DNA of 36,416 nucleotides from a virus, in the IMG/VR virus record IMGVR_UViG_3300035670_000698, positions 1 to 36,416 of that record. One strand, given 5' to 3'. The notes beneath the pieces were generated by a model. The model was not told the DNA's origin, searched no databases, and saw only the letters and a program-made list of their open reading frames with translations. Each line of letters starts with the position of its first letter. Positions within the stretch are counted from its first letter, which is position 1. This document shows positions 1,031 to 36,416 of this stretch, in pieces. A program made the position numbers and the translations under genes.

Positions 1031-1047
1031 GAGGCTTACAGAGCCTC
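1031..1047. terminator. Small hairpin between convergent genes
   Basis: GAGGCT (1031-1036) and AGCCTC (1042-1047) pair around a TACAG loop, in a tandem cttacagagg duplication. It overlaps the stop codon of the leftward WhiB-like gene and lies 77 bases after the LamG gene. There is no T tract on either side, so termination is uncertain. Confidence 0.3.
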
Positions 1048-1632
1048 GAATCCCTCAGCCATCTGCAATATCTGTTCTTTGGTGAACGATTCAGGCCCAA
1101 GACCCTTCGATTTCGCGGCCACGATGGTCTCTAACAACAACAATCTCTCATCGGTAGATAGGTCAGGGATGAGCTTTCGATTCAAGACCATCTTGCGTTC
1201 CCAGTTCGTGGTGGCTCCGAACACGCCGTATTCTTCTTCCAGATTCGCGGAGAGACACTGACGACGAACGGGACATTGAAGACACTCCTGTATAGCAAGA
1301 CGGAGGCCGTGGGATTCTTCACCAGGAGACCACTTATCATCAGCAAGGAAGGCTTTATCTACCATGGCCTGATGCTGGTCAGCGGAGACACCTTCCATAT
1401 CTTGGCCCAAGAATCGCGGCGCATTGAGATACACACATCTACCTTCAGAAGCCCAATCAGAAGGGGCGATGAGTGAGGTATTGAGAACGACACTATCTCT
1501 CCAATGAGGGTGCTTAGCGTCGAGATGAAGGCGCATCTCAGAAGATTGGGAGATAGGTATGTGTTTCGAGCAGAAGCCACAGACAAGAAGCTTCGGTGCA
1601 TCGTCGCTGGTTGCGGTCAGGTTCTCAGGCAA
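1036..1632 (-). CDS. WhiB-family iron-sulfur regulator with an N-terminal C2H2-like zinc finger
   Basis: This is a 198-residue protein. The WhiB core shows the four expected cysteines: C66 (GRC), then C117-x2-C120-x5-C126 (CLQCPVRRQC), followed by the turn GVFGATTNWERK near residues 136-147. WhiB proteins bind a 4Fe-4S cluster and act on sigma-A-dependent transcription; a phage homologue, WhiB of mycobacteriophage TM4, is known to repress host whiB2 and cause superinfection exclusion. Unusual here is residues 18-41, C-x2-C-x14-H-x4-H, a classical-looking zinc finger placed before the core. The start is TTG at 1632: AAGGAG lies four bases upstream. The protein is longer than typical WhiB members (about 80-130 residues). 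It is transcribed away from the 526-bp control region, alone, and may maintain lysogeny or immunity (inference). Confidence 0.88.
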   Translation of the reverse strand: MPENLTATSDDAPKLLVCGFCSKHIPISQSSEMRLHLDAKHPHWRDSVVLNTSLIAPSDWASEGRCVYLNAPRFLGQDMEGVSADQHQAMVDKAFLADDKWSPGEESHGLRLAIQECLQCPVRRQCLSANLEEEYGVFGATTNWERKMVLNRKLIPDLSTDERLLLLETIVAAKSKGLGPESFTKEQILQMAEGFEAL

Positions 1633-7307: not shown

Positions 7308-8159
7308 TTAGATGTCTGGGTATTCTGGGTATGACTTCAACTGAGCCTCGGCCACACAGACAGAACAATTCCTGACACCATCCCCAGTTCCAAGGCAGGA
7401 ATCGTGGTCATCGATATGTCCGCATAGGAAACACTCAAGACCTACCGAGGCTTTGTACTCAGCCAGAGAAGTAGATTGCAACGAGAGGATTGGGTCACGG
7501 CCAAGACCTGACCGAACCTTCTGAGGCTCCATATTCTTGACCACAGCCGAGAGTTGTTTAGGGCTGAGGGTCTTCCCAGAAGCAACCTGGGCCTTGAGAC
7601 TGAGCATGAACTTCCAATCTCCTGTGTACCGTTGGAGATAGGTCAACGCTTCTTGCTCTTGGTCTGGATTCAGACTCGAAACAGATTCGGAGATAGCAAC
7701 AACGGGTGTTGTTGTTGCTTCCTTAACTTGTCTTACTTCTTCTATAGGTAGCTTGCTCGGGTTTGCGGAGCGAGCGATGCTCTGGTTTACGGAGCGTGTG
7801 CTTGCTCCGGTTTGCCTGCTTTTGTTGGGGCGGCGAGAGGTGGTATTTGCCACCCGTTCACGAACCGTGTCCCACTCCGAGGGGATGCACACGGCGTAGA
7901 TGTTCTGGCCCTTGGCTTCCCTGGCTGTGCCCAGCCTCTTGCTGACCAGATACATCTTCTGGCGAAGTGACCGCAGCACCGCCTGAAGTTGGGTTCGGCT
8001 GATATCTGCGTCGAACATCAGTTGTTCCTGGGATACGAACGAATAGCCGTTCGACCGCTGGTACTCACTCAGGATTTGCCAGATGGCTTTCTCACGCCAA
8101 GTCAAGTCTTCACAACGACCAAGCCACTGCTGCATTGCGAACTTCTGGTAATACTCCAT
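7308..8159 (-). CDS. Phage replication initiator, lambda-O-like layout
   Basis: This is a 283-residue protein from ATG 8159 (GGAGG four to five bases upstream); an in-frame ATG at 8246 adds 29 residues and could serve a leaderless transcript. Residues 20-80 form a winged-helix DNA-binding domain typical of replisome organisers (LTWREKAIWQILSEYQRSNG, SQEQLMFDADISRTQLQAVL). Residues 100-155 are a polar hinge. A C-terminal domain ends in a zinc module, CFLCGHIDDHDSC then CSVC. The hinge-coding DNA contains three iteron-like repeats, as in lambda gene O. No phage polymerase, helicase or loader is seen, so it must recruit host enzymes. It heads the leftward operon after the element at 8248. Confidence 0.75.
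   Translation of the reverse strand: MEYYQKFAMQQWLGRCEDLTWREKAIWQILSEYQRSNGYSFVSQEQLMFDADISRTQLQAVLRSLRQKMYLVSKRLGTAREAKGQNIYAVCIPSEWDTVRERVANTTSRRPNKSRQTGASTRSVNQSIARSANPSKLPIEEVRQVKEATTTPVVAISESVSSLNPDQEQEALTYLQRYTGDWKFMLSLKAQVASGKTLSPKQLSAVVKNMEPQKVRSGLGRDPILSLQSTSLAEYKASVGLECFLCGHIDDHDSCLGTGDGVRNCSVCVAEAQLKSYPEYPDI
7755..7821. repeat. Three iteron-like 18-bp repeats, probable replication origin
   Basis: GCTCGGGTTTGCGGAGCG (7755-7772), GCTCTGGTTTACGGAGCG (7779-7796) and GCTCCGGTTTGCCTGCTT (7804-7821) are spaced 24 and 25 bases apart. The first two differ at two positions, and their ends (GCTC and GAGC) are inverted repeats. They lie in the hinge-coding part (residues 113-135) of the initiator gene. 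The lambda origin has the same plan: 18-bp imperfect palindromic iterons within gene O. A T-rich tract lies at about 7706-7745 next to them, a candidate unwinding site. Confidence 0.65.
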
Positions 8160-8212
8160 ACGACCTCCAATCGTGTATTGCGATGTTGCCATAACGCTTG
8201 CTTCAAAGAGCC

Positions 8213-8238
8213 GATAACTTCTGATTTCTTCTGATAAC
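8213..8238 (-). repeat. Short tandem repeat in the initiator leader
   Basis: Leftward reading gives two ATCAGAAG units 10 bases apart, bounded on both sides by GTTATC. It lies between the 37-bp element and the preferred start at 8159, and inside the optional N-terminal extension. It could be a binding site that lets the initiator control its own gene. Confidence 0.35.
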
Positions 8239-8247
8239 TGTTCCATC

Positions 8248-8355: not shown

Positions 8356-8595
8356 CTAAGCCTTGACAGCGACCTTCTTTGCAGGGGACTTACGGCGAGT
8401 GGTTTTCTTCGTGGTGGCCTTGGCCCCAGGCTGCCTTCCCCTACGGGGGGCATGACCATTGCGGGCAAGCATGCCGAGGTGTTCTTTACACAGGTCGTTC
8501 TGGATGGTGCCCTGTGAGCCCTTCCAGTTGATTGCCGAAACGGCGGGTCTACCACATTCAAGGTCACAGACCCTCGCCTGAACGGTCGCTTCCAT
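8356..8595 (-). CDS. Lsr2-like zinc protein with a basic, histone-H1-like tail
   Basis: This is a 79-residue protein; AAGGAGG stands five bases before ATG 8595. The N-terminal half combines zinc ligands (VCDLECGRPA, then DLCKEHLGML) with a strand pair that recalls the Lsr2 dimerisation region (AVSAINWKGSQGTIQNDLC). After it comes RRGRQPG, an AT-hook-like motif, and a Lys/Arg/Ala tail (KKTTRRKSPAKKVAVKA). Lsr2 is the actinobacterial xenogeneic silencer. This protein probably binds A/T-rich DNA and may compact or silence prophage or host promoters. Its start overlaps the end of the integrase gene by 32 bases, so the two are co-transcribed. Confidence 0.6.
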   Translation of the reverse strand: MEATVQARVCDLECGRPAVSAINWKGSQGTIQNDLCKEHLGMLARNGHAPRRGRQPGAKATTKKTTRRKSPAKKVAVKA

Positions 8596-9778
8596 CGTTC
8601 CCTCCTTGTGGGGATTCCGATGGCAATGTAGCGATTTGGGACGCTGTAATCAACCCCTCGATGGATGTCAAGTGAGAAGCAGCCACATCCTGAGTGATGT
8701 GATGGTAGGTGGAAAGCATCGTTTCCACGGAGTTACCGAACTGCTCGGTCACCCACTTGGTATCCCCACCTGTTGCGTTCATGGCGTTCACGGTGGCGCT
8801 ATGGCGCAGGTCATAGGTGGTGACTTTGAGACCAAGCCTCTGACCGGCATCGTGGATGATGGTGCGGAGATAGGTGGTGTTCAGGTAACGCTTCAGCCGC
8901 TCCCCACAGAACACCAAGGCGTTCTCATCGGTGGGCTCATCCACGAAGTTGGTGATGTGTTCGATGAGGGCATCAACCATGGATGGGGGAAGGTTCACGC
9001 GACGGGTCTTGTAGGTCTTCGTCGTGTCGTTGGCTGTCATCTTGCCTTCGACCGAGACCACGGAGCGACGAACCATCAGATAGCCCTCGGTGAGATTCAG
9101 GTCCCCGATACGAAGCCCGATGGCCTCACCGGGACGAAGCCCCAAGAATCCAAGCACCATCACCAGGGCCTTGTACCGGGGCCGTACCGCATCTGACAGC
9201 ATCGATATCTGCTCGGGGGTCAGGATGCTGATTTCCCTCTTCTTAGCTCTCTTCGGTAGGAGCCCCTGGACGAACTTCTTGCCCTGAATCGGGTTCTCAG
9301 GGATAAGGTCGTGGATATCGGCTGCGTAGGTCAGTGACGAGCGCAGGACCACGAAGGCGTATTCGATGGTGCTAAGGGCGAACCCCTGGTCTTGTGCCCA
9401 GTGCGACCACTTGACCACCACCGACTTGTTGATGTCGCTCAGGTAGGTCTCGGCTAAGAACGGCAAGATGTTGCGCTGCCCATACCTCTTATAGCCCGCA
9501 GCCGCCTTGGGGGACAGGTTGCGCTCGATGTGTTCGGGCAGGTAGGTCTCGTTCCAGTAATCCCCGTACTTGATACGACCGGGGGCTACCTCTTTGTGGA
9601 TGCCCTTGGCCATCTCACCTTCCAAGATGGCCTTGCGCCTCAGGGCCTCGTCTTTGTCCTCGTAGGTCTCAGCACGTTGATTACGGGCAATCGGCTCCCG
9701 CCACTGAATCTTGTAAGCAACGCTGCCGTCCTTACGGGGGACCTCGTACAGATACACCTTCGGGAGCTTGCTTCCCAT
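8564..9778 (-). CDS. int: Tyrosine site-specific recombinase (integrase)
   Basis: This is a 404-residue protein. Residues 1-65 form an arm-binding N-terminal domain (VYLYEVPRKDGSVAYKIQW), 70-170 a SAM-like core-binding domain, and 185-370 the catalytic domain. Catalytic residues are R215 (GLRPGEA), a lysine near 257, R325 in YDLRHS and the nucleophile Y358 (STYHH). The His of HxxR is Tyr322, seen also in other actinobacterial integrases, and the GH position of box III is Asn349 (FGNS). It inserts the phage into an attB site in the host. GGAGG precedes the ATG. It reads away from the repeat-rich 9779-10142 region, which probably holds attP and its promoter. Confidence 0.95.
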   Translation of the reverse strand: MGSKLPKVYLYEVPRKDGSVAYKIQWREPIARNQRAETYEDKDEALRRKAILEGEMAKGIHKEVAPGRIKYGDYWNETYLPEHIERNLSPKAAAGYKRYGQRNILPFLAETYLSDINKSVVVKWSHWAQDQGFALSTIEYAFVVLRSSLTYAADIHDLIPENPIQGKKFVQGLLPKRAKKREISILTPEQISMLSDAVRPRYKALVMVLGFLGLRPGEAIGLRIGDLNLTEGYLMVRRSVVSVEGKMTANDTTKTYKTRRVNLPPSMVDALIEHITNFVDEPTDENALVFCGERLKRYLNTTYLRTIIHDAGQRLGLKVTTYDLRHSATVNAMNATGGDTKWVTEQFGNSVETMLSTYHHITQDVAASHLTSIEGLITASQIATLPSESPQGGNDGSDRSGEGL

Positions 9779-9811
9779 GACCGGCCTCCAATCCTTCGGA
9801 GACCATCGTAC

Positions 9812-9829
9812 TGTTTCTGAGGTGTTTCT
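9812..9829 (+). repeat. Paired TGTTTCT site, copy b
   Basis: TGTTTCT at 9812 and 9823, starts 11 bases apart, 34 bases upstream of the integrase start. It is identical in both halves and in spacing to copy a at 1902-1919, preceded by the same GTAC trinucleotide context. It may be an integrase arm site or an operator over the integrase promoter. Confidence 0.6.
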
Positions 9830-9959
9830 GTCTAGGGAGGGGCTGAGGCGAATACTTAAATCTAACTTTCGGGCAACACCCTCTGACCTGCGCCTTCGAG
9901 GATGGAGGCGAGCCGTTTTGCCATTTCCGGTGAAGCGCCCTCGTCCTCGTGCTTGAAGT

Positions 9960-9983
9960 GCGCTTTATGGCGGGATTAAGCGC
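9960..9983. other. Inverted repeat, candidate attP core
   Basis: GCGCTT and AAGCGC flank a 12-base spacer, TATGGCGGGATT. Core-type integrase sites are inverted around a short crossover segment, and the position between paired site b and pairs c and d fits. The arms are only 6 bp, so this is weak on its own. Confidence 0.3.
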
Positions 9984-10041
9984 GAATAGGGCTCATCTGT
10001 CAAGTAGGGAAAACGCTCTGACCTGCGGGTTTGCTAACATC

Positions 10042-10103
10042 TGTTTCCAGTTTGTTTCTTTCTCAATCTAAGATTCGCTGACCTGTGTTTCCGCGTTGTT
10101 TCT
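10042..10103 (+). repeat. Two paired TGTTTC sites, copies c and d
   Basis: Copy c is TGTTTCC (10042) and TGTTTCT (10053); copy d is TGTTTCC (10086) and TGTTTCT (10097). Each pair has an 11-base step, and the pairs are exactly 44 bases apart, four times 11, so all four lie on one face of the helix. CTGACCTG occurs before each pair (10018, 10078). Confidence 0.65.
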
Positions 10104-10142
10104 GCCAATTCAACGAGCCTTAGCGACTCGTTCCTAGAATCA

Positions 10143-10160
10143 ATGACCTATGATGGTCAT
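10143..10160 (+). promoter_or_regulatory. Operator-like inverted repeat over a TATGAT -10, leaderless start
   Basis: ATGACC and GGTCAT form a perfect inverted repeat around TATGAT (10149-10154), which is one base from the TATAAT consensus. Transcription would begin six to seven bases downstream, on the ATG at 10161, giving a leaderless mRNA as is common in actinobacteria. A protein bound to the inverted repeat would block the promoter. No clear -35 is seen. Confidence 0.5.
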
Positions 10161-10358
10161 ATGAAACTAATGACTGTCTCCGAAGCGGCGGGCTTCCTAG
10201 AAGTCTCCAAGCCAACCATATATCGCTGGATTAATGATGAACGCATCCCATACATCCGGCACGGGCGTTACATCAGGTTCGTGCAGTCTGACCTCGAACA
10301 GTGGATTGAGGCACGACGGGTAAAGGCGGCGTTCGACGCTGATGGCAACCCAATCTAA
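10161..10358 (+). CDS. Excisionase/MerR-type HTH protein
   Basis: This is a 65-residue protein from ATG 10161; an upstream in-frame ATG at 10143 lies inside the operator-like repeat and has no ribosome site. The sequence MKLMTVSEAAGFLEVSKPTI, then YRWINDERIPYIRHGRYIRF is the winged-helix excisionase (HTH_17) domain: helix-turn-helix residues 5-22, wing at about 30-40. Such proteins act as recombination directionality factors or as small transcription regulators. It is divergent from int across the repeat-rich region, which fits control of integration versus excision. It is also the first gene ahead of the packaging genes and overlaps the next start by 17 bases. Confidence 0.8.
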   Translation: MKLMTVSEAAGFLEVSKPTIYRWINDERIPYIRHGRYIRFVQSDLEQWIEARRVKAAFDADGNPI

Positions 10359-36054: not shown

Positions 36055-36241
36055 CCCCGCAACGACCGCAGGAAGCATCGGAGCGGTTGTCACCATCGTC
36101 GGTGGTAGGTGGCTCGGATGGGATGCACAACTACAAGCAGACGTAGCGACCCTATGCCTAGTGGCTGTGCCCGTCGTAAGGGGCCTCGTCGCATGGTGGG
36201 AGAAACGGCATCCGGTTCCTGATGGACCAGCATTGCCATAA
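36026..36241 (+). CDS. Holin-like two-TM protein (71 aa)
   Basis: The N-terminus is basic (MSVKRTVRNNPATT); two hydrophobic stretches follow, about 16-31 (AGSIGAVVTIVGGRWLGW) and 39-56 (VATLCLVAVPVVRGLVAWW), then EKRHPVPDG. Length, two helices and charged ends fit a class II holin, and it sits at the end of the late operon, the usual lysis position. It would permeabilise the membrane to release or activate a lysin. The start overlaps the previous gene by 29 bases. Its last 29 residues are repeated at the start of the window through circularity. Confidence 0.7.
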   Translation: MSVKRTVRNNPATTAGSIGAVVTIVGGRWLGWDAQLQADVATLCLVAVPVVRGLVAWWEKRHPVPDGPALP

Positions 36242-36281
36242 GTGCGGAAAGCTCTATGGGACCTGCCCCCACACGATTTGA
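36222..36281 (+). CDS. 19-residue Cys/His peptide, second copy
   Basis: This is the same frame as 71-130, reached through the terminal overlap; protein sequence is identical, with ATT in place of ATA for the last residue. Bases 36222-36241 overlap the holin-like gene in another frame. Confidence 0.45.
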   Translation: MDQHCHKCGKLYGTCPHTI

Positions 36282-36289
36282 GGTAAGAG

Positions 36290-36416
36290 ATGACCTATTC
36301 AGATGAAGTCCTAACAGACACCCCCGTTGGATACTGGAAGCTGAACGAAGGGACCGGAACAGCGGTCGATTCCTCTGGGAACAGCCACGACGGAACCTAT
36401 AACGCCACGGTTAGCA
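36290..36416 (+). CDS. LamG protein, 5' end (partial; whole gene at 139-954)
   Basis: The first 42 codons of the LamG gene appear again and run off the window. Compared with the complete copy, residue 9 is Thr instead of Ala; all other residues match. It is the same gene from a slightly different genome copy. Confidence 0.85.
   Translation, partial: MTYSDEVLTDTPVGYWKLNEGTGTAVDSSGNSHDGTYNATVS

Follow-up and report, generated by a model that had tools for sequence, protein, structure and literature searches.

A probable attP with paired arm-type sites in an uncultivated, WhiB-encoding temperate phage

The 364-bp gap that separates the integrase gene of this phage from a divergently transcribed HTH_17 gene is, in our assessment, quite likely an attP in which paired integrase arm-type sites are arranged around a core, with the HTH_17 protein as the likely excisionase and the pair nearest to int in an autoregulatory role. 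A first-pass annotation had read three pairs of TGTTTC words as integrase arm sites flanking the core of an L5-like attP. Their position, their orientation, the 11-bp step, the neighbouring genes and the geometry of the attP regions of CrimD and Pixie support that proposal well, while attB, attL and attR were not found. A probable attP, with the exact positions of its proposed arm sites, is thereby located for an uncultivated temperate phage that encodes WhiB and for which no close relative turned up in the collections searched.

The TGTTTC pairs and their surroundings

The window is the whole viral contig that was analysed (36,416 bp). Its first 265 bp recur as 36152-36416 with five mismatches, which makes a circular or terminally redundant genome of ~36,151 bp probable, with ends imperfectly closed by assembly; the attP should then be intact. 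Structural genes (terminase, portal, capsid, tail) run rightward from ~10.3 kb and take up the remainder of the record, and the leftward block holds int (8564-9778, minus strand) and an O-like replication initiator gene (7308-8246). The product of int is a tyrosine integrase of 404 aa (Phage_integrase, 2.2e-15; phrog_1, 7.9e-47) that contains the catalytic family domain and an N terminus alignable with those of actinophage integrases; a single-sequence AlphaFold model, consulted on the question of the N-terminal domain, had a mean pLDDT of 39 and was uninformative. The 5' side of int adjoins the gap that contains three of the pairs, and on the other side of the gap the HTH_17 gene (10161-10358, plus strand; HTH_17, 2.3e-17) runs in the opposite direction. 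Annotated excisionases are among the best phage matches of its product, a probable excisionase by this likeness. Far to the left, a WhiB-like gene (1036-1632, minus strand) diverges from a small gene on the plus strand (2159-2362) whose product appears ribbon-helix-helix-like by eye and has no Pfam match. Carriage of a WhiB gene suggests that the host belongs to the Actinomycetota.

The pattern TGTTTC(T/C)-N4-TGTTTCT can be read directly at all four positions first reported for it. Pair 1 (TGTTTCT-GAGG-TGTTTCT, 9812-9829, plus strand) lies 33 bp upstream of the int start codon, pair 2 (TGTTTCC-AGTT-TGTTTCT, 10042-10059) and pair 3 (TGTTTCC-GCGT-TGTTTCT, 10086-10103) stand on the far side of the gap, also on the plus strand, and pair 4 (TGTTTCT-GGCC-TGTTTCT, 1902-1919) is remote and inverted, on the minus strand ~270 bp upstream of whiB. 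Pairs 1, 2 and 3 are thus all in direct orientation, the step is 11 in four of four, and pairs 2 and 3 start 44 bp apart, as had been noted. When both strands of the whole record were scanned, these were the only exact TGTTTC-N5-TGTTTC pairs, against a mean of 0.001 and a maximum of 1 in 1000 dinucleotide-preserving shuffles, which upholds the earlier judgement that chance recurrence is very unlikely. Among all hexamers at steps of 7-15, none recurs in the genome as often as TGTTTC/GAAACA at step 11; its four pairs are equalled by no other combination of hexamer and step, and shuffled sequences reach 1 or 2. Frequent similar pairs throughout coding regions, which the first-pass annotation had named as the observation that would tell against it, were not seen in the whole-genome search: all four pairs lie between genes, and with two mismatches allowed the count rises to only six sites (mean expected 2.2), the two extra sites being about the chance number.

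The gap as a probable attP

In the proposed mechanism, the gap (9779-10142) would be the attP of a tyrosine integrase of the lambda/L5 type, and the pairs at 9812, 10042 and 10086 would be arm-type sites that this integrase (8564-9778) contacts through its N-terminal domain, pair 1 forming the P side and pairs 2 and 3 the P' side. Each 11-bp unit would hold one integrase, all on one face of the DNA, and the arm pairs would flank a core, probably near 9960-9983, as the place of strand exchange with the host attB; the HTH_17 protein encoded from 10161 would be the likely excisionase. The features of such an attP are present in that a tyrosine integrase gene adjoins the gap, arm words are paired on both flanks at a helical-turn step and a probable excisionase gene is nearby. 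Pair 4, which lies 7.9 kb away and is not expected of arm sites, is a point against it. Taken together, the gene order, the geometry of the pairs and an integrase with both the N terminus and the catalytic domain make arm-type sites the best explanation of the three pairs, and we infer that the integrase binds them.

The closest match in geometry is to the attP regions of the mycobacteriophages CrimD (subcluster K1) and Pixie (K3), in which 7-8-mers are likewise repeated in tandem pairs (PMC3203893). In both, as here, one set lies ~20-35 bp upstream of int and the other ~185-220 bp away with the core between them, and the distance between the inner units of the sets is ~185 bp in CrimD, 211 bp in Pixie and 219 bp in this phage. 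The arm sites of CrimD have the form GTTGATG-N4-GTTGATG on the left, with a step of exactly 11, and a step of 12 on the right, ~20 bp before int; those of Pixie (GGGTACAC) are found at steps of 12, 13 and 14. There are also differences. The arm word of both phages differs from TGTTTC, the two sets of CrimD are mutually inverted whereas those of this phage are direct, and neither the CrimD nor the Pixie genome has an arm-word pair outside attP, unlike this phage with its pair 4. Furthermore, the cores of CrimD and Pixie correspond to a tmRNA or tRNA gene of the host, whereas no RNA gene match was obtained here; a tRNA gene search across the whole 36,416-bp record also found none. Giles offers the same gene order, with int on the minus strand, a short gap and an HTH_17 excise gene on the plus strand, and directly oriented pairs of arm sites are described for both Giles and L5 (PMC3203893). 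The likeness to Giles is one of gene order; its pairs did not come up in an exact-word scan.

The region is therefore read best as what may be an ordinary attP of the L5, Giles and Pixie type in a phage without sampled relatives. Exact peptide words from int, large terminase, portal, capsid and the HTH protein, a search that favours close relatives, found no relative in the viral_contigs collection, nor did pattern scans of the same collection for TGTTTC pairs turn up one that conserves the attP. The integrase alignment proved too divergent to serve as a search query, and when other high-GC phage genomes were scanned de novo for pairs, codon periodicity swamped the result.

Between pairs 1 and 2 lies the best inverted repeat of the gap, GCGCTTTAT-GGCGGG-ATTAAGCGC (9960-9983, 24 bp), of which ~0.12 would be expected in such a gap from the whole-record count; it is the best, if weak, candidate for the attP core. 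Its central 18-mer, used to look for attB in 84,980 prokaryote species represented by one genome each, gave three unrelated matches only. Common cores may be as short as ~10 bp (PMC10865867), so this outcome counts little against an attP. A short open frame on the minus strand at ~9866-9976 (SRHKAHFKHEDEGASPEMAKRLASILEGAGQRVLPES) was considered as the captured 3' end of a host gene and was set aside when no credible homologue emerged.

Pair 1 also bears on the expression of int. A promoter-like site for int (TAGACA, 18 nt, TACGAT; 9805-9834, minus strand) was identified by its match to the consensus, and pair 1 is its spacer; one such site was found in the region, where 0.4 were expected. As pair 1 overlaps this predicted promoter, an integrase bound there should repress its own gene, and the arrangement suggests autoregulation. 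At the attL/intS promoter of the KplE1 prophage, arm-type sites likewise overlap the int promoter and make the integrase gene self-repressing by negative autoregulation (PMC2951348); for this phage, the autoregulation is predicted from a consensus promoter match only.

A second repeated word, CTGACCTGYG, occurs three times in the gap (CTGACCTGCG at 9883-9892 and again at 10018-10027, and CTGACCTGTG at 10078-10087, abutting pair 3; all plus strand) and nowhere else in the whole record. Excisionases also bind short direct repeats in attP and can regulate promoters. It is accordingly conceivable, if very unlikely in our view, that the HTH protein encoded at 10161 binds the TGTTTC pairs and bends attP, and that the CTGACCTG repeats are the integrase sites instead. 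The position of the HTH gene beside the gap and the confinement of CTGACCTGYG to it would suit such an exchange of roles, but the CTGACCTG copies are unpaired, whereas the TGTTTC pairs stand on both sides of the core at an 11-bp step and match known arm sites. Moreover, half-sites resembling CTGACCTG form an inverted repeat immediately ahead of the HTH gene (10143-10160, ATGACC-TATGAT-GGTCAT), an arrangement that suits the HTH protein better; the TATGAT at its centre is -10-like. The CTGACCTGYG repeats and the inverted repeat may be excisionase or accessory sites, the copy at 9883-9892 being a possible excisionase site.

The remote pair and a possible shared regulator

Pair 4 lies in the divergent intergenic region between whiB and the gene at 2159, ~270 bp upstream of the former and 240 bp upstream of the latter. 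It most resembles pair 1, with which it has flanks in common (GTACTGTTTCTGNNNTGTTTCT). Because TGTTTC at step 11 tops the genome with four pairs and shuffled sequences reach 1 or 2, pair 4 is by itself also unlikely to have arisen by chance. The extended motif common to pairs 1 and 4 returned three unrelated coding matches in viral_contigs, about the chance number.

The first-pass annotation took the fourth pair to argue for a shared regulator, possibly a repressor. That pair 4 is not a chance occurrence and is placed in a second divergent intergenic region was borne out, and no candidate repressor was identified; the alternative is kept only because of these two properties of pair 4. Stated in full, it holds that all four pairs are the target of one regulator, either a phage repressor or a host response regulator of the OmpR/PhoB type such as GlnR (in whose box GAAAC-n6 units recur every 11 bp), and that this regulator governs the divergent int/HTH and whiB/2159 promoter regions. 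Direct repeats in a 7+4+7 format are usual for OmpR/PhoB-type sites, and the pairs are tandem direct repeats with an 11-bp step. Such a regulator would account for pair 4, with its non-random occurrence and the flanks in common with pair 1, and pair 1 overlaps a promoter-like site. We nevertheless regard it as unlikely: the scan of left-arm proteins revealed neither a response regulator nor a repressor, no GTnAC unit stands in register beside the GAAAC of the pairs, and pairs 2 and 3 are at the places expected of arm sites, where no promoter is predicted.

Pair 4 may be a remote integrase site, a shared-regulator site or a remnant. Within the attP model it enters solely as a further potential integrase-binding site. 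A bolder version, in which pair 4 is a genuine binding site 7.9 kb from attP and the integrase, a recombinase that would also regulate at a distance, links attP and int with the whiB control region, we consider distinctly unlikely. Were pair 4 bound by the integrase, arm-type sites would exist outside attP and integration would be tied to a regulatory region.

The whiB/2159 intergenic region contains two further elements. A perfect palindrome at 1820-1834 (GTGTACA-C-TGTACAC) is operator-like. A second word with an 11-bp step, TTAGGCC-N4-TTAGGCC-N4-TTAGGCC, occupies 2062-2095, ~65 bp upstream of the gene at 2159-2362, and is a possible autoregulatory operator.

TGTTTC arrays in other phages

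The same hexamer with the same step is found in other phages in a different setting. A scan of viral_contigs with the tandem-pair pattern returned 25 loci, none of them a relative of this phage and most of them arrays within initiator genes. Arrays of TGTTTC(C/T) with an exact 11-bp step were recorded at L011, L012, L015, L017, L018, L020, L021, L022, L025, L028, L032, L034 and L035; there the initiator gene is always antisense to the TGTTTC strand and the array follows just after the N-terminal domain. Ten array-bearing genes were tested, and every one has matches in replication-initiation or DnaD-like families, with several different kinds represented.

It might be supposed from these exact 11-bp-step arrays, present inside the replication-initiator genes of many other phages, that the TGTTTC pairs are iterons for the O-like initiator of this phage (7308-8246), a reading that we hold to be most improbable. 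The iterons in DnaD-like and O-like initiator genes have the hexamer and the step in common with the pairs, but they form arrays of at least five units within the initiator gene, whereas this phage has isolated dyads between other genes and none within its initiator gene. That gene also has repeats of its own, an imperfect series of period ~24 at 7751-7813 that is unlike TGTTTC. The series spans codons 145-166 of 312, a place comparable to that of the TGTTTC arrays of other phages (codons ~110-150), which makes it unlikely that the pairs are iterons of the phage's own initiator. The repeats at 7751-7813 are the probable iterons of the replication origin.

The use of one iteron word across different initiator families may merit separate study. 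At two loci on other viral contigs, L014 (2534-2583) and L033 (3673-3744), arrays of CTGTTTCRCA with an 11-bp step lie outside initiator genes, between a large gene of ~710 aa and the next structural-type gene.
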